From an uncultured Oscillospiraceae bacterium (GTDB lineage Bacteria > Bacillota > Clostridia > Oscillospirales > Oscillospiraceae): 24,900 bases of DNA. A model generated the notes under the pieces. That model saw only the letters and a list, made by a program, of their open reading frames with translations, searched no databases and was not told the origin of the DNA. The translations under genes and the position numbers were made by a program. The DNA lies in assembly GCA_934572445.1 (NCBI GenBank), contig CAKTLD010000017.1:1-24900 (forward strand), written 5' to 3'. Shown one piece after another: positions 10,975 through 20,879 of this stretch. Position 1 is the first letter of the stretch; every line of letters starts with the position of its first letter.

Positions 10975-12111
10975 ATGAAATTCCTTCATTTGTCCGATCT
11001 GCATATCGGCAAACGCGTCAATGAAGTCTCCATGCTGGACGATCAGGCATATATTTTGGACCAGATCCTGGACATCGCGGATGCCGAACAGCCGGATGCC
11101 GTATTGATCGCCGGCGATATCTACGATCGAAGTATTCCATCCAACGAAGCGGTTACGCTGTTTGATGATTTCCTTGTCAAGCTGGCCAAACATCATCTGC
11201 CCGTGCTGATGATCAGCGGCAACCACGACAGTCCCGAGCGTCTTTCGTTTGGCGGCCGCCTTCTGGACGCAAGCGGGATCTACATTTCCCCTGTCTACCA
11301 CGGCAATATCCAGCCGGTCACACTTACAGACGATTACGGACCCATTCACTTTTGGCTGCTGCCATTTATCAGGCCTGCCCATGTAAGGCGCTTCTTCCCG
11401 GACGAACCCATTGAAAGCTATACGGATGCCTGCCGCACGGTGATCGCGCACATGCCCATCGATCCAGGTGAGAGGAATGTGCTGATCACGCATCAGTTTG
11501 TCACGGGCGCCGTCACCTGCGAATCGGAAGAACTGAGCGTCGGCGGTGCAGATAATGTGGATGCTTCTATCTTTGATGTCTTTGACTATGTGGCTCTGGG
11601 CCACATTCACGGTCCGCAAAACATCGGCTCCAACCGCATCCGCTACTGCGGCACACCGCTGAAATACTCATTCTCCGAGTCGGACCATCACAAGAGCGTC
11701 ACAGTGGTCACGATCAACAAAAAGGGAACATTGAACTTACAGCTGCAGCCCCTTCTGCCCCGGCATGATCTGCGGCAGATCCGCGGCAGCTTCGCAGCCT
11801 TAACCGACAAATCGTCCTATGAAGGTACGGCTTTGGACGATTATCTCCATGTTATCCTCACGGACGAGGAGGATATCCCGGAGGCGATCGGCAAGCTCCG
11901 GCTGATCTATCCGAACATCATGAAGCTCAGCTACGATAACACCCGCACCCGCACTGACCAGAGCATCGACGCGGCAGCAGACGTTCAAAGGAAGACCCCG
12001 CTGGAACTGTTTGAAGAGCTGTATGAGATGCAGAACAATCAGCCCATGGGCGAAGAACAGCGCGCATTTGCGCAGGATCTGATCGAATCCATTTGGGAGG
12101 AACGGATATGA
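10975..12111 (+). CDS. sbcD: Nuclease SbcCD subunit D
   Basis: This 378-residue protein is the Mre11-type nuclease subunit of SbcCD, which cuts hairpins and blocked DNA ends together with SbcC. The metallophosphoesterase motifs appear in order: LSDLHIG (residues 6-12), AGDIYDR (~46-52), SGNHDSPERL (~80-89), ITHQF (~170) and LGHIHGPQ (~208-215). The C-terminal capping region ends in LFEELYEMQN and a helix that normally contacts SbcC. ATG with CGGAGG seven bases upstream. Its stop overlaps the sbcC start (ATGA), so the two are translationally coupled. Confidence 0.97.
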   Translation: MKFLHLSDLHIGKRVNEVSMLDDQAYILDQILDIADAEQPDAVLIAGDIYDRSIPSNEAVTLFDDFLVKLAKHHLPVLMISGNHDSPERLSFGGRLLDASGIYISPVYHGNIQPVTLTDDYGPIHFWLLPFIRPAHVRRFFPDEPIESYTDACRTVIAHMPIDPGERNVLITHQFVTGAVTCESEELSVGGADNVDASIFDVFDYVALGHIHGPQNIGSNRIRYCGTPLKYSFSESDHHKSVTVVTINKKGTLNLQLQPLLPRHDLRQIRGSFAALTDKSSYEGTALDDYLHVILTDEEDIPEAIGKLRLIYPNIMKLSYDNTRTRTDQSIDAAADVQRKTPLELFEELYEMQNNQPMGEEQRAFAQDLIESIWEERI

Positions 12112-14873
12112 GACCGCTGAAATTGACCATTGCGGGCTTCGGCCCCTATGCCGGTGCGCAGGAACTGGACTTTGAACAGCTCGGTCAAAGCGGGCTTTAC
12201 CTCATCACCGGCGATACCGGAGCGGGTAAGACGACGATTTTCGACGCGATCACCTTTGCTCTTTTCGGGGAGGCCAGCAGCGATAACAGAGCGCCTTCCA
12301 TGCTCCGCTCCAAATACGCAAGGCCAGAGGACCCGACTTATGTCGAACTCACTTTTACATATAGCAGCAAGACTTACATCGTCCGTCGAAATCCAGCCTA
12401 TGAACGCGCCAAAACGCGCGGAACGGGCACGACCGCTCAAGACGCCTCCGCACTGTTGACCATGCCAGACGGTTCTCCTATCACAAAGCTCAAGGAAGTA
12501 GACAAGGCGATCAGAGAAACTATCGGACTAACGAGGGAACAATTCTCTCAGGTCTGCATGATCGCTCAGGGCGATTTCCGCCGCCTGCTTCAGGCGAACA
12601 CGGACGAGCGAAAGAAGATCTTTACAGACATATTTGGTACAGGACTCTATGGCAGCCTGCAGCTGCGGCTGAAATCGGAAACCGCTGACCTTCAGCGCCG
12701 GACGGATGAGGCCAAGCGCAGCATCTGGCAGTATACCGGCGGTATGGTCTGCGCAGCCGATTCGGATTTTGCCGCAGATGTCCGGAAGGCGAAGGACGAT
12801 GGGCTCCCCACCGCCGACTTGATGGAGCTTTTTGAAAAGCTTCTGAATGAGGATCACGCGCTTCTATCGCAGATGAGTAAACAAGCCGCAGAGGCAGAAC
12901 ATGATATTCTGGAGCTGGAAAAGCAGAAGGCGCTGGCCACAGCTTACCAGGACGCGAAAAAGGCTCTGGCCGCACGGCTTGCGGATGAAAAAACGCAGGC
13001 AGATGCGTGGCGCACTGCCCAAGCCGCACTGAAAGAAGCAGACGCTGCGCAGGAAGATGGTTACCCGCAGTTGATCAAGCAGATAGCGGAGATCCGGCAG
13101 ACACTCCCCTCTTACGACGAATTGGACAGCAAGACTACCGCTCTTGGTGAAAAAGAAGCTCTGCGGGCAAAGGCGGCTGCGAAAAAGGCTCAGATCGTTC
13201 AGAAAAGAGATCAGCTCTCCAGTGAGCTTGCAGCGATCAAAGCAGAGTTAAACTCCATAGAGAGCAGCGGTGAAGAAAAGGCATCCCTTGAAGCGATCCT
13301 TCAACAGAAAACGGACAGGCAGTCCGCACTCCGGGAATTGCTCTCCGACTATGAAAGCTGCCATGAGCAGAAAGCGCAGCTGTCGAAAAAGCAGCATGAC
13401 TATCAGGAGTGTGCGGAAGCCGCTTCCACCCTGCTCGAGAAATATGTCCAAATGCAGCGCGAGTTTTTAGACGCGCAGGCGGGGATCATTGCCGGCACAC
13501 TTCAGGCCGGAGTACCATGCCCTGTCTGCGGCGCTGTTGAGCATCCACACCCGGCAGTGCTGCCGGCGCATGCCCCCACCGAAGATCATGTCAAGCACGC
13601 AAAGGATGATTATGACCGTGCGCAGGCTGCTGCCGAGGACGCAAGCAAGGCCGCCGCCGCGCAAAAGGGTATCGTCGAAGAAAAGGAGCGCTCGCTGCAA
13701 GTCAGGCTGACAGCCTTGCTGCCGGATGTAACGCCCGAGCTGGCGGAAACCGCTGCCCAAGCGCGAAAAGAGGAACTTGGGCAGCAGATTACAGCTCTTA
13801 CTGAGAAAGTACAGTCGCTGGAGGCCAGTATTCGCAGGAAGCGCAGGCTGGAGGAAGAGATTCCGGGCAAAGAAACGGCTCTTCATCAGCTGGCGGAGGA
13901 TGGAAACACTGCGGACAAGCAGCATGAACGGCTCTGCGTGGAGATAGACGGGCTGACCGCGCAGATCACAGCCCTCCAAGATTCGCTTCCCTTCAGAGAC
14001 AAAGCAGCCGTTGAAGACGAGACCACCCTCCTGCAAAAAAGAGCCGACGATCTCAAGCAGGCGTTTGTGGATGCACAGGAACAGGAAAAAGACGCTCTCA
14101 ATGCACTGACCGCGACCAGAGCGGCGATCCGGCAGCTGCAGGAACAGCTGAAAAACGGAGCCGGCGCAGACGTGGACATGCTGGCCGCGCAGATCAATGA
14201 AAAAAGCGCTGTGAAAGACGCTGCAAAGGAACATCTGCAAACGATCCGCACCAGAATAAGCGCGAATGAGACCGCGCGGGACAACATCCGGAAAAAGTGC
14301 GGCGAGCTGGAAACTTTGGAACGTCGATACATGTGGATGAACAGCCTATCCAAAACCGCAAATGGGGCCCTCAATGATAAGGCGAAGGTCGATTTGGAGA
14401 CCTATGTCCAGACGACCTATTTCGACCGCATCCTTGAGCGTGCGAATCTGAGATTACAGAAGATGTCCGGCGGGCAGTATGATCTCAAACGCCGGCAGAA
14501 CGCAGATAACAAGCAGAGTAAGAGCGGATTGGAGCTTGATATCGTCGATCACATCAATGCCACCGAGCGCAGCGTCAATACGCTCTCCGGCGGCGAGGCG
14601 TTCCTGGCATCTCTGGCCCTTGCCCTCGGCCTTTCTGACGAGGTACAGATGTCTACCGGCATACACTTGGATACTCTATTTGTGGATGAAGGCTTTGGCT
14701 CGTTGGACTCTGAAGCGTTGAGCAAGGCCTATCAAACGCTCGCCGGGCTGACGGAGGGAAACCGCCTTGTCGGGATCATCTCGCATGTGGCAGAACTCAA
14801 AGAGCGCATTGATCGGCAGATCGTAGTTGTCAAGGGACCCAGCGGCGCCAGCCACGCAAGCGTTGTCTGCTGA
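12108..14873 (+). CDS. sbcC: Nuclease SbcCD subunit C (SMC-like ATPase)
   Basis: This 921-residue Rad50-type ATPase partners SbcD. The Walker A loop is GDTGAGKTTIFDAI (~residues 34-47). It is followed by the Q-loop region (FSQVCMIAQGDFRRLL) and a long antiparallel coiled coil. A zinc hook, CPVC, sits at its apex (~470). The ABC signature LSGGEAF and Walker B LFVDEGFGSLD are near the C-terminus, ending with a switch histidine in IISHV. The start is the ATG overlapping the sbcD stop, preceded by GGAGG; an earlier in-frame ATG at 12093 lies within sbcD. Length is slightly below the E. coli protein (~1050) because of shorter coils. Confidence 0.97.
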   Translation: MRPLKLTIAGFGPYAGAQELDFEQLGQSGLYLITGDTGAGKTTIFDAITFALFGEASSDNRAPSMLRSKYARPEDPTYVELTFTYSSKTYIVRRNPAYERAKTRGTGTTAQDASALLTMPDGSPITKLKEVDKAIRETIGLTREQFSQVCMIAQGDFRRLLQANTDERKKIFTDIFGTGLYGSLQLRLKSETADLQRRTDEAKRSIWQYTGGMVCAADSDFAADVRKAKDDGLPTADLMELFEKLLNEDHALLSQMSKQAAEAEHDILELEKQKALATAYQDAKKALAARLADEKTQADAWRTAQAALKEADAAQEDGYPQLIKQIAEIRQTLPSYDELDSKTTALGEKEALRAKAAAKKAQIVQKRDQLSSELAAIKAELNSIESSGEEKASLEAILQQKTDRQSALRELLSDYESCHEQKAQLSKKQHDYQECAEAASTLLEKYVQMQREFLDAQAGIIAGTLQAGVPCPVCGAVEHPHPAVLPAHAPTEDHVKHAKDDYDRAQAAAEDASKAAAAQKGIVEEKERSLQVRLTALLPDVTPELAETAAQARKEELGQQITALTEKVQSLEASIRRKRRLEEEIPGKETALHQLAEDGNTADKQHERLCVEIDGLTAQITALQDSLPFRDKAAVEDETTLLQKRADDLKQAFVDAQEQEKDALNALTATRAAIRQLQEQLKNGAGADVDMLAAQINEKSAVKDAAKEHLQTIRTRISANETARDNIRKKCGELETLERRYMWMNSLSKTANGALNDKAKVDLETYVQTTYFDRILERANLRLQKMSGGQYDLKRRQNADNKQSKSGLELDIVDHINATERSVNTLSGGEAFLASLALALGLSDEVQMSTGIHLDTLFVDEGFGSLDSEALSKAYQTLAGLTEGNRLVGIISHVAELKERIDRQIVVVKGPSGASHASVVC

Positions 14874-14944: not shown

Positions 14945-15202
14945 ATGTCATACAGTCGGAGCGGCAGCGCGCGGTATTCGTGTGATGATTTGGATGTCGC
15001 GGCAGAAGAGGATACAAAGGACGGCTTCTCGGAGCAGGAGCGGGCGTACCGGGCAGTCGCTGCATACGCGCGCAGCCAGCTGCGGGAATACTACGGTTCC
15101 GCCAGCCGCATCCATCCGGAGGCCTACGGCGAGTTGGCGCATGTGGAACAAATGAGTCCGGATGAGCTTCTTTATGAAGCGGCCAAAAACGGACTTCTCT
15201 AA
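14945..15202 (+). CDS. 85-aa protein of unknown function, upstream of radical SAM gene
   Basis: The ATG at 14945 follows GAAGGAGGA by four bases; an upstream ATG at 14876 has no such site. The protein is soluble and acidic. It has a Ser/Tyr-rich beginning (MSYSRSGSARYSCDDLD) and a helical remainder (ERAYRAVAAYARSQLREYY, then MSPDELLYEAAKNGLL). No family is recognised. It lies 71 bases after sbcC and 43 bases before the radical SAM gene, all on the same strand. It may be a partner or a substrate of the radical SAM enzyme; that is position-based inference only. A small hairpin (CGGCGCA / TGCGCCG, 14889-14910) lies between sbcC and this gene. Confidence 0.75.
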   Translation: MSYSRSGSARYSCDDLDVAAEEDTKDGFSEQERAYRAVAAYARSQLREYYGSASRIHPEAYGELAHVEQMSPDELLYEAAKNGLL

Positions 15203-15245
15203 ATGTACGCTCCCCAGTCCACTAAGAAAACAAGGGTGACCAAAG

Positions 15246-16328
15246 TTGCAATATGTGATCCATGACAAGAAGTATCGCTTCAAGTTTGCGTTTGATACAC
15301 AGACCGGCGCATACATTCGTACCGGAATACTGGATGAAAACGGCAGAGACACCGGCAAAGATCCCTTCATGGCCTCCTATCCGCACCTGATCGACGTCGG
15401 CATCATGGGGCGCTGTATTCACGGAAAAAGCGGACTGTGCACAAAGGCGGGCATTGACTGCTACCAAAGCGGCCAGATGATCGCGGAGCCCAATATGTCC
15501 GTTGCGGATTTCCGGTGGATCGCCGAACAGTCCAAAGGCCGGTGCAGCCAGTTTGCATTAGGCGGACGCGGTGACCCTGATCAGCACGAGGATTTTGAAG
15601 AGGTTTTGAAAATCTGCCGGGAAAACGATCTCGTACCGAATTTCACGACGTCCGGCTACGGCATGACGCCGGAAATCGCAAAGCTATGTAAGCAGTATTG
15701 CGGCGCTGTGGCGGTCAGCTGGTATCGGAGCGAGTATACGCTCTCAGCGATCAGGCAGCTGCTGGATGCCGGGGTCAAAACCAATATTCACTATGTGCTG
15801 GGCAGAAACAGCATCGCCGAGGCGATCGACCGCCTGAAACGGAATGATTTTCCCCGGGGGATCAACGCCGTGATCTTTCTCCTGTATAAGCCCGTCGGCC
15901 AGGGGGTAAGGGAAAATATACTTGTTCCTGATGATCCGAGGGTCGCGGATTTTTTTGCCGAGGTGGATAAGCGTCATCCATTCAAAGTAGGGCTGGATAG
16001 CTGCAGCGTACCGGGCGCGGTCAGCTTTTGCAGGGCAATCGTGCCGGAGTCACTGGATACTTGCGAGGGGGGACGGTACAGCTGCTATATCGGCGCGGAT
16101 CTGACCATGGTGCCGTGCAGCTTTGACCGGAATAAGCGATACGAGGTCTCGCTGCGCGAAATGAGCATTTCAGATGCCTGGAACAGCGAACCATTTGAGC
16201 AGTTCAGAAACAGAATGAGAACTGCTTGTCCTGCTTGTGAGAAAAAGGAGCTGTGTATGGGCGGCTGCCCGCTCATGCCCGAAATCGTATGCTGCAGCAG
16301 CAGCAAAAAGAGCACAGTTAAGGGGTAA
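15246..16328 (+). CDS. Radical SAM/SPASM domain protein with CX7CX6C cluster motif
   Basis: The 360-residue protein begins at TTG (AAGGGTG 7 bases upstream; an in-frame stop lies just before). A radical SAM barrel is suggested by LIDVGIMG leading into Cys57, Cys65 and Cys72, spaced CX7CX6C rather than CX3CX2C, and by GGRGDP (~106-111) at the GGE position. The C-terminus is a good SPASM domain: Cys273, 280 and 291, then CPAC...C...C...C (328, 331, 337, 341, 349), binding auxiliary iron-sulfur clusters. Such enzymes typically modify peptides or proteins. Three bases separate it from the next gene, and that gene's ribosome binding site lies in its own last codons. The odd spacing could mean a distinct subfamily. 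Confidence 0.85.
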   Translation: MQYVIHDKKYRFKFAFDTQTGAYIRTGILDENGRDTGKDPFMASYPHLIDVGIMGRCIHGKSGLCTKAGIDCYQSGQMIAEPNMSVADFRWIAEQSKGRCSQFALGGRGDPDQHEDFEEVLKICRENDLVPNFTTSGYGMTPEIAKLCKQYCGAVAVSWYRSEYTLSAIRQLLDAGVKTNIHYVLGRNSIAEAIDRLKRNDFPRGINAVIFLLYKPVGQGVRENILVPDDPRVADFFAEVDKRHPFKVGLDSCSVPGAVSFCRAIVPESLDTCEGGRYSCYIGADLTMVPCSFDRNKRYEVSLREMSISDAWNSEPFEQFRNRMRTACPACEKKELCMGGCPLMPEIVCCSSSKKSTVKG

Positions 16329-16331
16329 ACT

Positions 16332-17420
16332 ATGAAGATCCGAACCGATTTTGTGACCAATTCCAGCAGCAGTAGTTTTTCAGTTTTAGTCACCGTCGAA
16401 GACAACAACGGGCATACCTTTTCTTTTGAAGAGAATCCCTATGACTATTACCCCGATTCCGGCGGCGACTGCCAGTTCAACGCTGATTTGAAAATGCTTA
16501 TGACCGATGATCTGGTAAAGGCGATCAAGGCGGCGCATGAAGTGAAATATGACCTTGAAGGACTCGACAAAGAGGGGTGGAATGAGCGGATCGAAAACGT
16601 AAAGGTTGGTGATGCCGCCGAATTGGTAAAGATCCCGGGGGTAACCAGTATCCGCTGGATGGACAAGGTCGATTATGTCGTAGATGTAAGAACAAAAGAG
16701 GGCTCGATCGGCCTTCTTCCCGGCAAGGCTCTGGATCTGGTCAAGTACGTTCTGGACAACGATGCCATCGAAGCAAAGGCTGTCGTCAGCAGCGTAAAGC
16801 CGCTGTCGAAGCGGGGCAAGAGCGCTAAAAATGCTTCGATCTCCGTCACGATCGACGCAGAAAAGAAAAATCCGGCGCAGGCCCTCATCTTCAAAGATGT
16901 TTCAGGCCTTGCCAGATTTCTCATAGATTCGGTATCGGACGACTATGAACCCGATGATGAAGAAAACGACACCCATGAGCAGGATACCCGTGCGCAGAAG
17001 GATAAGTTTATTGCCGATGTGAGCAAAAGCATCTCATCGACCGATGATATTGCAAAGATCTCTGTTCATCGGAAGTACAGCGCGTGGGGCGACCACGCCG
17101 ATCCGGTACCGGACAACGATGAAGCGCTTTGCGCGTATGCACGCAAAGTGCTGAACAGTTCAGGAGAAGAGCGGAAGCAATCCATTGAGGATATGCTTGC
17201 TTACATTCATCGGTCGAACCCAAACCGCTGCGGTGAAGTATTCGGTCATGGGTATGATGACATCCGCTATACATGGAACGGGGATGAAGCAACGCTCTTG
17301 ACGCTTGCGGAGCGGCTTTGCAGCTATCATTGCGCGGAGACATGCAGTGGACGGGAACACGATGAGCTTGACCTGAGAACAAAAGCAGTCAACTCTTATG
17401 CGGAGTTCGATCTGAATTGA
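16332..17420 (+). CDS. Protein with N-terminal DFVTNSSSSSF motif, candidate partner of radical SAM enzyme
   Basis: The 362-residue protein has a striking beginning, MKIRTDFVTNSSSSSF, with five serines at residues 11-15. I have seen this N-terminal motif on many otherwise unrelated hypothetical proteins of Firmicutes. The rest is soluble and acidic, with a very acidic linker (DDYEPDDEENDTHEQD, ~residues 200-216) between two domains. The second domain has conserved-looking Cys/His content (YHCAETCSGREHDE). No catalytic family is recognised. AAGGGG precedes the ATG by six bases and the gene follows the radical SAM gene by three bases, so the two are made together. Last gene before a two-hairpin repeat that can act as its terminator. 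Confidence 0.8.
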   Translation: MKIRTDFVTNSSSSSFSVLVTVEDNNGHTFSFEENPYDYYPDSGGDCQFNADLKMLMTDDLVKAIKAAHEVKYDLEGLDKEGWNERIENVKVGDAAELVKIPGVTSIRWMDKVDYVVDVRTKEGSIGLLPGKALDLVKYVLDNDAIEAKAVVSSVKPLSKRGKSAKNASISVTIDAEKKNPAQALIFKDVSGLARFLIDSVSDDYEPDDEENDTHEQDTRAQKDKFIADVSKSISSTDDIAKISVHRKYSAWGDHADPVPDNDEALCAYARKVLNSSGEERKQSIEDMLAYIHRSNPNRCGEVFGHGYDDIRYTWNGDEATLLTLAERLCSYHCAETCSGREHDELDLRTKAVNSYAEFDLN

Positions 17421-17516: not shown

Positions 17517-18359
17517 TCACAGATCGAGCCATATATCCAGCAGTCTTTTTGCTGCATCCCGGTCGTTTTGGGCGGTTGTTCCGGCGACAGCAAGGCCGTC
17601 CAGGACTACTGCGCCGCTGCAGGCACTTTGAATACTGCCAACTGTGCCCGACAAGCCGCTGCCTGCGTGGGTGCAGAAGGGAATGATGGTCTTGCCTGTA
17701 AAGTCGCAGCTTTCCAGAAATGTATAGACCGCCATCGGCATATCGCCGTACCAGATGGGATAGCCGAGATAGATCACATCATAATCCGCGAAGTTCGTCA
17801 CCACGGACGCAAGCTCCGGTCTTGCGCCTGAATCCCGCTCCTGTCTGGCGACCGCTGTACATTCGTCATAGTCCTCCGGATAAGCATTGACCGTCCGGAT
17901 ACGGAAGGTATCTGCACCGACCGCATCTGCGATCATTTCCGCGACGATCTCCGTATTTCCCTTTTCGATCACGCCGACGCCGTAATTCTCACCGGCACGG
18001 GAAAAGTACGCAACAAGCGTTTTGGACGCGGCGGGAGTCTTTTCCTGCTCAGATGGCACCGGCCCGTCTTCTTCCCTTACAGAAGCATTTGCAGGAGGGA
18101 ACTCCGCAGGCGCTTGTGGGGCGGTCACATTATTTGTTGCGGCTTGAGAGCTTTGCTCAGAAGAAATATCGTCTATAGGCGCAGCAGAGGTGTCTTCTGA
18201 AGCCTGTTCGTTTTCCGCCTCAGGCGTTGCCGTGGAAACGACATCCGCTGCCTCGTCCTGTGATATCTCCAGTTCAGTGTCTGCCTGATTGCCGCAAGCC
18301 GCCAGCATGAACACCAGCAGAACCGACAGCAGAATGATCACAAGTTTCTTTTTCATCAT
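17517..18359 (-). CDS. Lipoprotein-anchored flavodoxin
   Basis: The 280-residue protein has a lipoprotein signal (MKKKLVIILLSVLLVF, then MLAACGN; lipobox LAAC, lipid cysteine ~22). A ~90-residue low-complexity linker rich in Glu, Ser, Thr, Ala and Pro follows, and then a flavodoxin domain of the flavodoxin_4 kind (~112-280: LVAYFSRAGENYGVG, KGNTEIVAEMI, DVIYLGYPIWYGDMPM, FCTHAGSGLSGTV). The FMN domain should lie outside the membrane, tethered by the flexible linker. Its ATG overlaps the SDR stop (ATGA), so it is translationally coupled and last in the redox operon. An extracytoplasmic electron carrier is the likely role, inferred. Confidence 0.9.
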   Translation of the reverse strand: MMKKKLVIILLSVLLVFMLAACGNQADTELEISQDEAADVVSTATPEAENEQASEDTSAAPIDDISSEQSSQAATNNVTAPQAPAEFPPANASVREEDGPVPSEQEKTPAASKTLVAYFSRAGENYGVGVIEKGNTEIVAEMIADAVGADTFRIRTVNAYPEDYDECTAVARQERDSGARPELASVVTNFADYDVIYLGYPIWYGDMPMAVYTFLESCDFTGKTIIPFCTHAGSGLSGTVGSIQSACSGAVVLDGLAVAGTTAQNDRDAAKRLLDIWLDL

Positions 18360-19189
18360 GTCTCCGGTTTCAGCGGGCCGTAATAGTAGCTGGCCGTGGC
18401 GCCGCCGTCAATGAGAAAGGTAGAACCACTGATAAAAGCACCCTTGTCGCTCATGAGCAGTACTGCCACATTGGCAACTTCATCTGCTGTGCCTGGGCGG
18501 CCCGCGGGACATTTGGCAAACATATTCTTATAGAAATCCCCGCGGGGACCGTTGAACTCATCCAGCGCCAAAGGTGTGACGATGATGCCGGGGGCAATGT
18601 CGTTGAGCCGCGCGCCCCGCTTGCCCCATTCGACTGCCTGCGCCATAACGCGCTTCTCGTTGCAGCGTTTGGCCAGCTGGTAGGCGTGGAGCGTATCGCG
18701 GATGTTCTCAGGCTGCAAAAAGTCGAGCGACAGCAGCTCCTCCGCCGGCGTGGTGGCAAGCTTTTCATCCTGCTCCACTGTCAGGGCAGGCATCCGCCAT
18801 CCGGACTGGCTGGAAATGGTGACGCCCACGCCGCCCTCGGCAATGACCTTGCCTACCTCTTCCAACAGCACCGCTGTGCCGTAAAGATCGACTTTCAAAA
18901 TTGCCTCAATGGGAGCCTGACTGGGAGAAACGCCCGCGGCGTTCACCAGCATTTTGATGGGACCGTACTTCTGTCCCTCGGTGATCAGCGCTTTGATGGA
19001 GTCCCGGCTGGACAAGTCCATCTCCACCGGAACCACATCGAAGCCAGCCTCGTTCATCGTTTTGGCGATGGCCTGCGCATTTGCGAGCTTCTTGTCGCCG
19101 ACGACGATCTTCATACCTGCGCCCATGCGGCGGGCGATGGCCATGCCGATCTGCCCGGCACCGGCCAAAAGCATAACATTCTTCATCAT
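18356..19189 (-). CDS. Short-chain dehydrogenase/reductase (SDR)
   Basis: The 277-residue protein has a Rossmann nucleotide-binding start with a slightly unusual glycine motif (LAGAGQIGMAIARRMG, where TGxxxGIG is classical). It also has NAAGVSPSQAP (NAG motif), TISSQSGW (catalytic serine), HAYQLAKRCNEK (catalytic YxxxK) and a C-terminal FISGSTFLIDGGA typical of SDRs. It would be an NAD(P)H-dependent ketone/alcohol oxidoreductase; the substrate is unknown. The start is the ATG at 19189 or the next codon (19186), following AAGGAGA; an upstream extension to 19270 lies in the flavodoxin gene. It sits 7 bases after that flavodoxin stop. Confidence 0.92.
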   Translation of the reverse strand: MMKNVMLLAGAGQIGMAIARRMGAGMKIVVGDKKLANAQAIAKTMNEAGFDVVPVEMDLSSRDSIKALITEGQKYGPIKMLVNAAGVSPSQAPIEAILKVDLYGTAVLLEEVGKVIAEGGVGVTISSQSGWRMPALTVEQDEKLATTPAEELLSLDFLQPENIRDTLHAYQLAKRCNEKRVMAQAVEWGKRGARLNDIAPGIIVTPLALDEFNGPRGDFYKNMFAKCPAGRPGTADEVANVAVLLMSDKGAFISGSTFLIDGGATASYYYGPLKPET

Positions 19190-19196
19190 ATTCTCC

Positions 19197-19694
19197 TTAC
19201 AAAAGGGCCTTGACGCTCTGCGCCCAGGCGTTGATCTTTGCCTCCGGCGTTTCCAGATGGTCGCCGCCATTGGAGTCGAACTTCACCTGCATCTCGCAGG
19301 CAAACTCTGCGCCGGAGCAAATGCTTTCCATATCTTTGATGGCATGACCCGGCCAGCCGCCGTTGGTCATAAACGGCACAACGGTCTTGCCGGCAAAGTC
19401 GTTCCGGTGCAGGAATGTCTTCACCGCGAGAGCCATGGTGTACCACCAGGTCGGCGTGCCGACGGCGATCACATCATAGTCTGCAATATCCACGCCGACC
19501 GGCTTTAGCTCCGGCTCATAGCCCTGATGGACCTCCCGCTGTCCCTGCTCCACCACGTCGTTGTAGCTGCCGGAATAGGGCACAGCCGTGTCAATCTTCA
19601 AAAGCTCGCCGCCTGCAACGCCCTGGAGCGTTTTCGCAATGCGCTCTGTGTTGCCGCACGACCAGGAGTAGTAAACGATCAGGAGTTTTTTCAT
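19197..19694 (-). CDS. Flavodoxin
   Basis: This 165-residue cytosolic flavodoxin has the FMN phosphate loop YYSWSCGNTERIAK (residues 7-20), DYDVIAVGTPTWWYTMALAV at the isoalloxazine loop and FMTNGGWPGHAIKDM late. It is an FMN electron carrier or small NAD(P)H:quinone-type reductase of the flavodoxin family. The start is the ATG at 19694, overlapping the stop of the preceding flavodoxin (ATGA) with GAGGAGG upstream. It is the second of three flavodoxin genes in the operon. Confidence 0.92.
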   Translation of the reverse strand: MKKLLIVYYSWSCGNTERIAKTLQGVAGGELLKIDTAVPYSGSYNDVVEQGQREVHQGYEPELKPVGVDIADYDVIAVGTPTWWYTMALAVKTFLHRNDFAGKTVVPFMTNGGWPGHAIKDMESICSGAEFACEMQVKFDSNGGDHLETPEAKINAWAQSVKALL

Positions 19695-20206
19695 CTTGCG
19701 ACCTCCTCGCCCCACTGCTCCAGCACCGCTTTTGCATTGTCCACGGCACTGCCGCGAACCGCAAGGCCACGGGTAACGACTGCGCCCGGCGCGGCCTTTT
19801 GAATGTCCTCTACCGTATGGGAAAGGCCGCTGCCCTCATGGGTGCAGAAGGGGTGGATCGTCTTACCGGTGAAATCGTAGTTTTCGAGGAAGGTGCAGAC
19901 CGCCATCGGCATGGTGCCCCAGTAGTTGGGATAGCCTAAATAAATCTCGTCATAAGCGTCCAGATCATCGGGCAAATCCAGCACCTCCGGGCGGGCGTTG
20001 GCCTGCAAGTCGGCCTTGGCCTCGGCGGTGCAGGTGTCGTAGTTATCAGAATAGGGCTGCGCCTGTTCGATTTTGTAAAGCTCGCCGCCGGTCATGCTGG
20101 CCAGCATCTTGGCTGCCTTTTCCGTGTTGCCGACGGAAATGCGGCGGTGCGCGCCGCCAAAGTAATTCTCTCCCGCGCGGGAGTAAAATGCGATCAAAGC
20201 TGCCAT
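19691..20206 (-). CDS. Flavodoxin (flavodoxin_4 type)
   Basis: The 171-residue protein has AFYSRAGENYFGGAHR and SVGNTEKAAKML at the FMN loop, DEIYLGYPNYWGTMPMAV in the middle and PFCTHEGSGLSHTVEDI near the end. This pattern is shared with the lipoprotein flavodoxin at 17517-18359, so the two are paralogues. Cytosolic, no signal. The start at ATG 20206 is set by AAAGGAGA six bases upstream. It overlaps the next flavodoxin by four bases and follows the iron-sulfur flavoprotein-like gene by one base. Confidence 0.92.
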   Translation of the reverse strand: MAALIAFYSRAGENYFGGAHRRISVGNTEKAAKMLASMTGGELYKIEQAQPYSDNYDTCTAEAKADLQANARPEVLDLPDDLDAYDEIYLGYPNYWGTMPMAVCTFLENYDFTGKTIHPFCTHEGSGLSHTVEDIQKAAPGAVVTRGLAVRGSAVDNAKAVLEQWGEEVAR

Positions 20207-20207
20207 A

Positions 20208-20738
20208 TCAAATCTCCTTTCCCATATCAAAAGCCTGTTTCAGCGAAGGATGGCGATACACATCGCCCTTGTCCCAAGTGCCGGTGCCAAAGATCACGCC
20301 CGCTTCCTTCGCCCCCGGCAGACAGCGCAGGAAGCCTCGGAAGTCTGCCAGCGTTTCGTCCGCGGCGCTGTGCTGGGGATCGGCCGCCGTGACGATCAGA
20401 TAGAACGTCTTATCGCGGATGGCCTGATAGTCGGCCAAGCAGCGGTCGATCATGGCTTTCATCTGGGCACAGACGGAGTAGAAGTACACCGGCGAGGCCA
20501 GCACGATCACATCCGCCGCCTTGAGTGCGTCCAGTACCTCCGCCATATCGTCCTTCCGGACGCATACATGGCTTTCGGCGCAGCCGGAGCAGGCAGCACA
20601 CGGAGCGATTTTCTTTTCCGCCAGCCGGATTTTTTCTATCTCGTGACCGTTTTCCGCTGCACCCTTCAAAAATTCGTCGCACAGTACATCGGAATTGCCT
20701 CCCTTGCGGGGGCTGGAACTGATGGCAAGTACCTTCAT
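20208..20738 (-). CDS. NADPH-dependent FMN reductase / iron-sulfur flavoprotein-like
   Basis: The 176-residue protein begins with the NADPH-dependent FMN reductase fold (KVLAISSSPRKGGNSDVLCD, FMN phosphate loop SSPRKGGNS). It carries a compact cysteine cluster, CAACSGCAESHVC (CX2CX2CX5C, ~residues 47-59), as in iron-sulfur flavoproteins that hold a 4Fe-4S cluster. VLASPVYFYSVCAQMKAMID is the usual flavin-side segment. The start is the ATG at 20738 (AGAGGG upstream, about nine bases); longer starts are upstream of the promoter. It is the first gene of the redox operon and could feed electrons to the flavodoxins. Confidence 0.9.
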   Translation of the reverse strand: MKVLAISSSPRKGGNSDVLCDEFLKGAAENGHEIEKIRLAEKKIAPCAACSGCAESHVCVRKDDMAEVLDALKAADVIVLASPVYFYSVCAQMKAMIDRCLADYQAIRDKTFYLIVTAADPQHSAADETLADFRGFLRCLPGAKEAGVIFGTGTWDKGDVYRHPSLKQAFDMGKEI

Positions 20739-20768
20739 TGGAACACCCTCTCTGTTTTTGATGCCTTT

Positions 20769-20797
20769 ATTGTAGCTAAGCAGGTCTCCGCAATCAA
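20769..20797 (-). promoter_or_regulatory. Promoter of the redox operon
   Basis: On the minus strand TTGATT (20792-20797) and TACAAT (20769-20774) are 17 bases apart, about 35 bases upstream of the first gene's start. The TetR gene ends just upstream and is closed by a terminator, so the operon has its own promoter. Confidence 0.65.
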
Positions 20798-20841
20798 TTT
20801 CGCTTTCGGAGCTTTTGAATAAGTAAAACTGATATGAACGC

Positions 20842-20879
20842 AAAAAGAGAGACAGAACCGCAAAACGGTTCTATCTCTT
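20842..20879 (-). terminator. Terminator of the TetR unit
   Basis: On the minus strand an AAGAGATAGAACCG / CGGTTCTGTCTCTC stem with one mismatch is followed by TTTTT. It separates the TetR transcript from the redox operon promoter at 20769-20797. Confidence 0.8.

Follow-up and report, generated by a model that had tools for sequence, protein, structure and literature searches.

We have analysed a window of 24,900 nucleotides (nt) from an uncultured Oscillospiraceae bacterium (assembly GCA_934572445.1, contig CAKTLD010000017.1, positions 1 to 24,900 of the forward strand), in which a gene for a radical S-adenosylmethionine (SAM) enzyme with a SPASM domain is followed by a gene whose protein opens with a short conserved segment, called the tag below. 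The enzyme gene (15246-16328, plus strand, TTG start) encodes 360 amino acids (aa) and its product is the proposed tag-modifying enzyme. Three bases separate its stop codon, which ends at 16328, from the ATG at 16332 that starts the gene for the proposed substrate, a protein of 362 aa (16332-17420, plus strand) whose residues 1-16 form the tag MKIRTDFVTNSSSSSF (16332-16379, plus strand). This arrangement, pointed out in a first-pass annotation of the window, was confirmed from the open reading frames (ORFs) and from Pfam.

The enzyme matches the SPASM model PF13186 over residues 273-331 (E=6.3e-8), and its match to Radical_SAM PF04055 (E=0.011) lies below the cut-off; no NCBIfam model scored above cut-off for the enzyme, nor had the tagged protein an NCBIfam match at E<=1. 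The SPASM region runs from Cys273 to Cys350 (16062-16295, plus strand) and holds the auxiliary-cluster cysteines seen in alignments A1 and A4. Together with this domain, fold matches of a structure model to SuiB, SkfB, AnSME and PqqE place the protein among radical SAM/SPASM enzymes, with a predicted fold of the peptide-modifying type. The SAM-cluster loop is not the canonical CX3CX2C; it reads CX7CX6C (Cys57-Cys65-Cys72; 15414-15461, plus strand), and these cysteines are invariant in 20 of 20 sequences of alignment A1, the window among them. At E<=1e-3 the family counts 4,477 proteins, of which the top 120, those listed, are 76-93% identical; relatives align from the TTG-start residue onward. 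Close members share the CX7CX6C loop, other phages have a CVC-type loop and a distant clade of phages and plasmids has CX3CX2C; because these are homologues of the same family, the cluster triad looks homologous, with loop insertions.

The tag has the consensus MK[IVFY][RK]x-D-[FY]-V-T-N-S-S-S-S-S-[FY]. In 139 distinct tags (151 less one that was too short and 11 duplicates, all found by profile, which favours conserved ones) N10, S11 and S12 occur in 139/139, V8 and K2 in 138, T9 in 137 and F7 in 135, the remaining four having Tyr. This conservation is at the protein level: synonymous codons vary across tag positions 2-16 while the residues stay the same, so that a repeat or codon signal at the DNA level was rejected. 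A chance motif was also rejected, given the conservation over the 139 tags and the presence of the tag in all 61 homologues of the whole 362-aa protein (60 found by regular expression, and P0136, which has NSSGS). A search with residues 1-40 yielded 577 proteins at E<=10, and the tag is present in 120 of the 120 listed, as is expected by construction with a query that is the tag region.

Behind the tag stand dissimilar bodies, as the first-pass annotation had supposed: when five sequences under 60 aa are dropped from the 151 tagged proteins, the remaining 146 bodies fall into 47 BLAST clusters (single linkage, E<=1e-4). Tagged proteins of 60 aa or more are 76-1,073 aa long, and the window protein is predicted to be folded (predicted local distance difference test score, pLDDT, 92.9), neither of which fits the short precursors of ribosomally synthesized and post-translationally modified peptides (RiPPs). 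In the same model residues 1-10 of the tag have a mean pLDDT of 48 and the first strand begins at residue 13; the tag thus appears to be a flexible peptide ahead of a folded body. A conserved N-terminal segment, a variable body and a predicted fold that begins at residue 13 could also mean that the tag is a leader processed off by RiPP-like maturation or radical backbone cleavage, the mature body beginning after the Ser tract; one genome (G158), which has genes for a trypsin-like peptidase and a metallo-beta-lactamase protein in the same gene run, would fit this. We consider such processing improbable, since the entire tag is conserved, the body in the window is folded, with several domains and no short core, and no protease was seen among the 30 most recurrent neighbour families, of which only some were identified; an ABC transporter-looking family (by eye) was seen among them in 3 loci. 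RiPP recognition elements (RREs), the PqqD-like domains that bind peptides, gave no match in the Pfam and NCBIfam scans of the enzyme, the tagged protein and an 85-aa ORF upstream of the enzyme, with no dedicated RRE search made; about 45 residues precede the enzyme barrel.

The enzyme, present in anaerobic bacteria, phages and plasmids, is nearly always accompanied by the tag, and the pairing was observed in both directions. With the enzyme as seed, we collected 103 loci (the best 80 of 114 genome loci, 22 viral loci and the window), and a nearby tag is present in 94 of them. In 76 loci the nearest tag gene follows the enzyme on its own strand; in the others it precedes the enzyme, in 14 on that strand and in four on the opposite one, and the median gap is 32 nt. 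Of the nine tagless loci, five (L038, L045, L097, L098 and L101) stop inside the enzyme or shortly past it, and a sixth (L080) has an upstream ORF that the end of the contig leaves open. When the tag alone served as seed (profile A2), the best 80 of 169 matches led to 77 viral loci; the enzyme, partly cut by a contig end in some, is present in 67, and in four of the remaining ten it lies elsewhere on the record, the distance to the tag being 21, 27, 44 and 46 kb. Operon hitchhiking alone is disfavoured as an explanation by these four phage records and by the four loci with the tag on the opposite strand. The enrichment of the enzyme near motif-bearing genes, which the first-pass annotation had proposed to check, was therefore found from either side, and the lack of enrichment that it named as grounds for giving up the idea was not seen.

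Genomes drawn evenly from whole taxa gave the same picture. Among 341 genomes of one class the enzyme was found in six and a tag match in seven; all six pairs share a contig, and the seventh tag match (G081) is an antisense stretch without an MK start. Among 216 genomes of one order an identical set of seven has both enzyme and tag, on the same contig, and the others have neither; the chance of identical sets of seven among 216 is 2.5e-13 (the class and order draws overlap, and G006, the seeding genome, is in both). A third class, that of G014, gave one positive among 150 genomes, the seeding genome. A nascent-chain, export or localisation signal, with the enzyme linked for some other reason, would suit a tag that is strictly N-terminal and has Lys at residue 2 in 117 of the 120 listed proteins. 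This is highly unlikely in our view, as it leaves unexplained why the tag-bearing genomes are the enzyme-bearing ones, and the tag, judged by eye, is hydrophilic and has no signal-peptide core. The linkage would be accounted for equally well if the tag were a docking peptide, unmodified itself, that brings diverse partners to an enzyme acting elsewhere, on a nucleotide, a nucleic acid or another protein (viperin, for one, acts on CTP); we regard docking as a rather unlikely alternative to modification of the tag.

Residue 4 of the tag follows the enzyme loop: it is Lys in 50 of 51 tags with a CX3CX2C enzyme and Arg in 291 of the 292 whose enzymes have inserted loops, in a count that excludes 15 tags with unclassified enzymes and includes redundant loci. 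Two genomes (G311 and G661) break the pattern, with a CX3CX2C enzyme and yet an R4 tag; the correlation is therefore taken as a clade effect and is given little weight here.

To our knowledge, peptide-modifying SPASM enzymes act on short precursor peptides or on a single family of enzymes. SuiB, SkfB, CteB, PqqE and AnSME are 12-17% identical to the window enzyme, whose family differs from them in placing one tag on 47 BLAST clusters of bodies and in the CX7CX6C loop of most of its members. Sactipeptides and ranthipeptides carry thioethers formed from substrate Cys, whereas no Cys is conserved within the first 20 residues of the 139 tags (the bodies were not examined for Cys). A Ser tract in the tag might suggest an enzyme of the anaerobic sulfatase-maturase type that converts tag Ser to formylglycine. 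This is the least probable of the readings considered here: in a profile alignment to 4k37 the place of AnSME Asp277, which follows the auxiliary-cluster Cys276 and which we take to be the catalytic residue, is occupied by Ser292, invariant in 46 sequences of alignment A4, and the sulfatase target motif C/S-x-P/A-x-R is absent from the tag. Viperin (pVip) was considered and rejected, the window enzyme having no PADLOC match to it and a plasmid relative (L181) matching over residues 47-156 only; nor did the enzyme or the tagged protein match any known defence system in PADLOC at E<=0.001. The enzyme belongs to a known kind, and in the part of the open-access literature that we consulted we found no description of the enzyme-tag system or of one N-terminal tag borne, as a portable unit, by many dissimilar folded proteins.

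Several bodies point to DNA. Residues 59-186 of the 362-aa protein (16506-16889, plus strand) are predicted, by comparison of the structure model, to form an inserted HIRAN domain, a fold shared with HLTF, Rad5 and lp_0118; unlike those proteins, the window protein has no helicase attached, the HIRAN lies inside a tagged body, and the other parts have no clear match in the PDB, which is not proof of a new fold. A domain scan of 89 tagged proteins found BRCT in eight, LRR_5 in seven and HIRAN in one; among the 120 listed matches of the search with residues 1-40, BRCT was found in eight, HIRAN in six and LRR in two.

The gene neighbourhood adds to this. In the window the enzyme gene is preceded on its strand by two adjacent context genes, sbcD, for the nuclease subunit (10975-12111, plus strand; TIGR00619, E=2.5e-50, above cut-off), and sbcC, for the ATPase subunit (12108-14873, plus strand; PF13476 and PF13558 above cut-off, NF041751 and TIGR00618 below). 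SbcCD, which had been named beforehand, was found at 5 of the 81 bacterial enzyme loci, the window included (4 of 80 without it), and in none of 60 control regions. Genes resembling those for SbcCD, AddAB, UvrD, YhaNO, an RNase_T exonuclease or a WYL regulator occur in 18 of the 81 loci (1,169 kb) and in one of the 60 controls (824 kb, from 20 enzyme-bearing genomes), although the families other than SbcCD and the queries were picked after viewing the same loci and many controls are short. Pfam backs representatives of SbcC, SbcD, the UvrD/AddA-type helicase, an AAA ATPase, WYL and RNase_T. SbcCD, AddAB and YhaNO-like genes therefore look over-represented near the enzyme, with the families partly chosen afterwards. 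The DNA-damage or genome-defence context suggested in the first-pass annotation is supported in part only, by the HIRAN and BRCT bodies and by the SbcCD count. In one genome (G687) a weak endonuclease/exonuclease/phosphatase match lies in the same gene run. At locus L006 (2402-5888) the pair is flanked on one side by an sbcD-like fragment of 91 aa and on the other by an intact sbcD, by eye very similar to the fragment, with sbcC next; it looks as if a cassette had integrated with partial duplication.

The system is not confined to Firmicutes, the group in which the first-pass annotation had placed the motif; it extends to Chloroflexota and Coriobacteriia (by record titles), to large phages and to alphaproteobacterial plasmids. 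In the phage library PHROG, entry 7293 matches the enzyme (E=1.2e-16) and entry 7397 matches tag residues 1-23 (E=7.4e-6); both are unnamed and without function there. Close relatives in deposited phages were not found: tblastn gave 169 records, all below 60% identity, with 24-26% in the 40 listed. T4-like phages (RB16, KP27, Matisse) have radical SAM proteins that are distant homologues, about 25% identical, with a CX7CX2C loop, and no tag was found on the translated genes neighbouring the enzyme in RB16, Matisse and UPEC03, the remaining parts of these genomes not having been searched for tags. In phage L175 eight consecutive tag matches, seven of them called as ORFs, stand behind one enzyme. 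Two phages carry an in-frame intein with a LAGLIDADG domain near residue 100 of the enzyme (L124:5602-7938 and L163:7139-9499), and in two large phages adenylosuccinate synthetase-like genes lie directly upstream of the enzyme (L175:6623-7819 and L163:5979-7136). Reverse transcriptase (RVT_1) genes lie near the enzyme in phage contigs (L086:674-2089, with a SLOG-like domain, and L083:6254-6583, with a related gene in L087).

On plasmids of Agrobacterium, Rhizobium and Rhodobacter the enzyme is 34-38% identical to that of the window and accompanies a 131-132-aa protein that starts MK[IL]K-x-DFVSNSSSTSF (four records translated). The pair lies there behind a SMEK-domain protein, and the operons (L181-L184) consist of this protein, a protein of about 120 aa (in L182-L184), the tagged protein and the enzyme. 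The NTPase of L181 matches SMEK_N, NACHT and Avs2 models, and the plasmid operon looks like an undescribed conflict system; the SMEK/NACHT gene is absent from the window, which has SbcDC instead.

The 85-aa ORF between sbcC and the enzyme (14945-15202, plus strand), once put forward as a possible second partner, is unsupported as a part of the system: it has no Pfam or NCBIfam match, its best PHROG E-value is 0.092, and tblastn found no relative at E<=1 among the loci collected. On the minus strand beyond the tagged gene lie a Flavodoxin_4 lipoprotein gene (17517-18359, by Pfam) and, within 17517-20843, more flavodoxin- or FMN reductase-looking ORFs (by eye), possible candidates for electron donors of the radical SAM enzyme.

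We think it fairly probable that the portable N-terminal tag is covalently modified by a SPASM radical SAM enzyme dedicated to it, and that the tagged proteins are engaged with DNA ends or phage-host conflict. From these observations and models we infer a modification, its target residues, its chemistry and its biological role as follows. The enzyme barrel would take in the flexible tag, generate a 5'-deoxyadenosyl radical and abstract hydrogen inside the invariant [FY]VTNSS core; the product would be an intramolecular cross-link (an ether or C-C bond) among aromatic residue 7, Thr9, Asn10 and Ser11/12. With no conserved Cys in the tag, a thioether is less likely than such a cross-link, and so is formylglycine, for the base that sulfatase-maturases have is missing from the enzyme. 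In each genome a single enzyme would serve several cargo proteins. A function at DNA ends or in phage-host conflict is probable for the marked proteins, given the HIRAN and BRCT bodies, the SbcCD, AddAB and YhaNO-like neighbours, and the phage or conflict-type operon settings.

Some observations weigh against tag modification by a dedicated enzyme, the after-the-fact choice of neighbour families among them. In three enzyme loci (L064, L067 and L083) no tag was found, despite at least 2 kb of contig on either side. Conversely, 6 of the 77 tag-seeded viral loci are on records with no detectable enzyme; two of them, the similar phage records L155 and L162, are long (121 and 111 kb) and have four tag matches each. 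The phage members of the CX3CX2C clade whose sequences were inspected (L088-L096, L107, L108, L115 and L120) lack the C-terminal half of SPASM and keep the tag proteins, with the tag unchanged, which suggests that the second auxiliary cluster is dispensable and that one is enough. Since linked pairs were the source of both profiles, divergent unlinked tags could escape them. The loci are also non-independent: both seeded lists are best-match subsets, and several viral loci are near-identical or share a record (e.g. L111/L112; L146/L147/L149/L153; L121 and L130 on one record).

A wider reading, which we offer tentatively, is that of a general protein-marking system, in which bacteria, plasmids and large phages have fused one portable tag, bearing one fixed modification, to many unrelated DNA-end or conflict effectors, up to eight cargo proteins per phage. 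The mark might then serve as a shared means of activation, as an anchor or as a label of self and non-self. If tag modification is borne out, radical SAM enzymes would gain a new use, with one constant tag passed between many unrelated folded proteins; this would give a function hypothesis for hundreds of hypothetical proteins and for two unnamed phage families, and may provide a protein tag for new C-H functionalisation.
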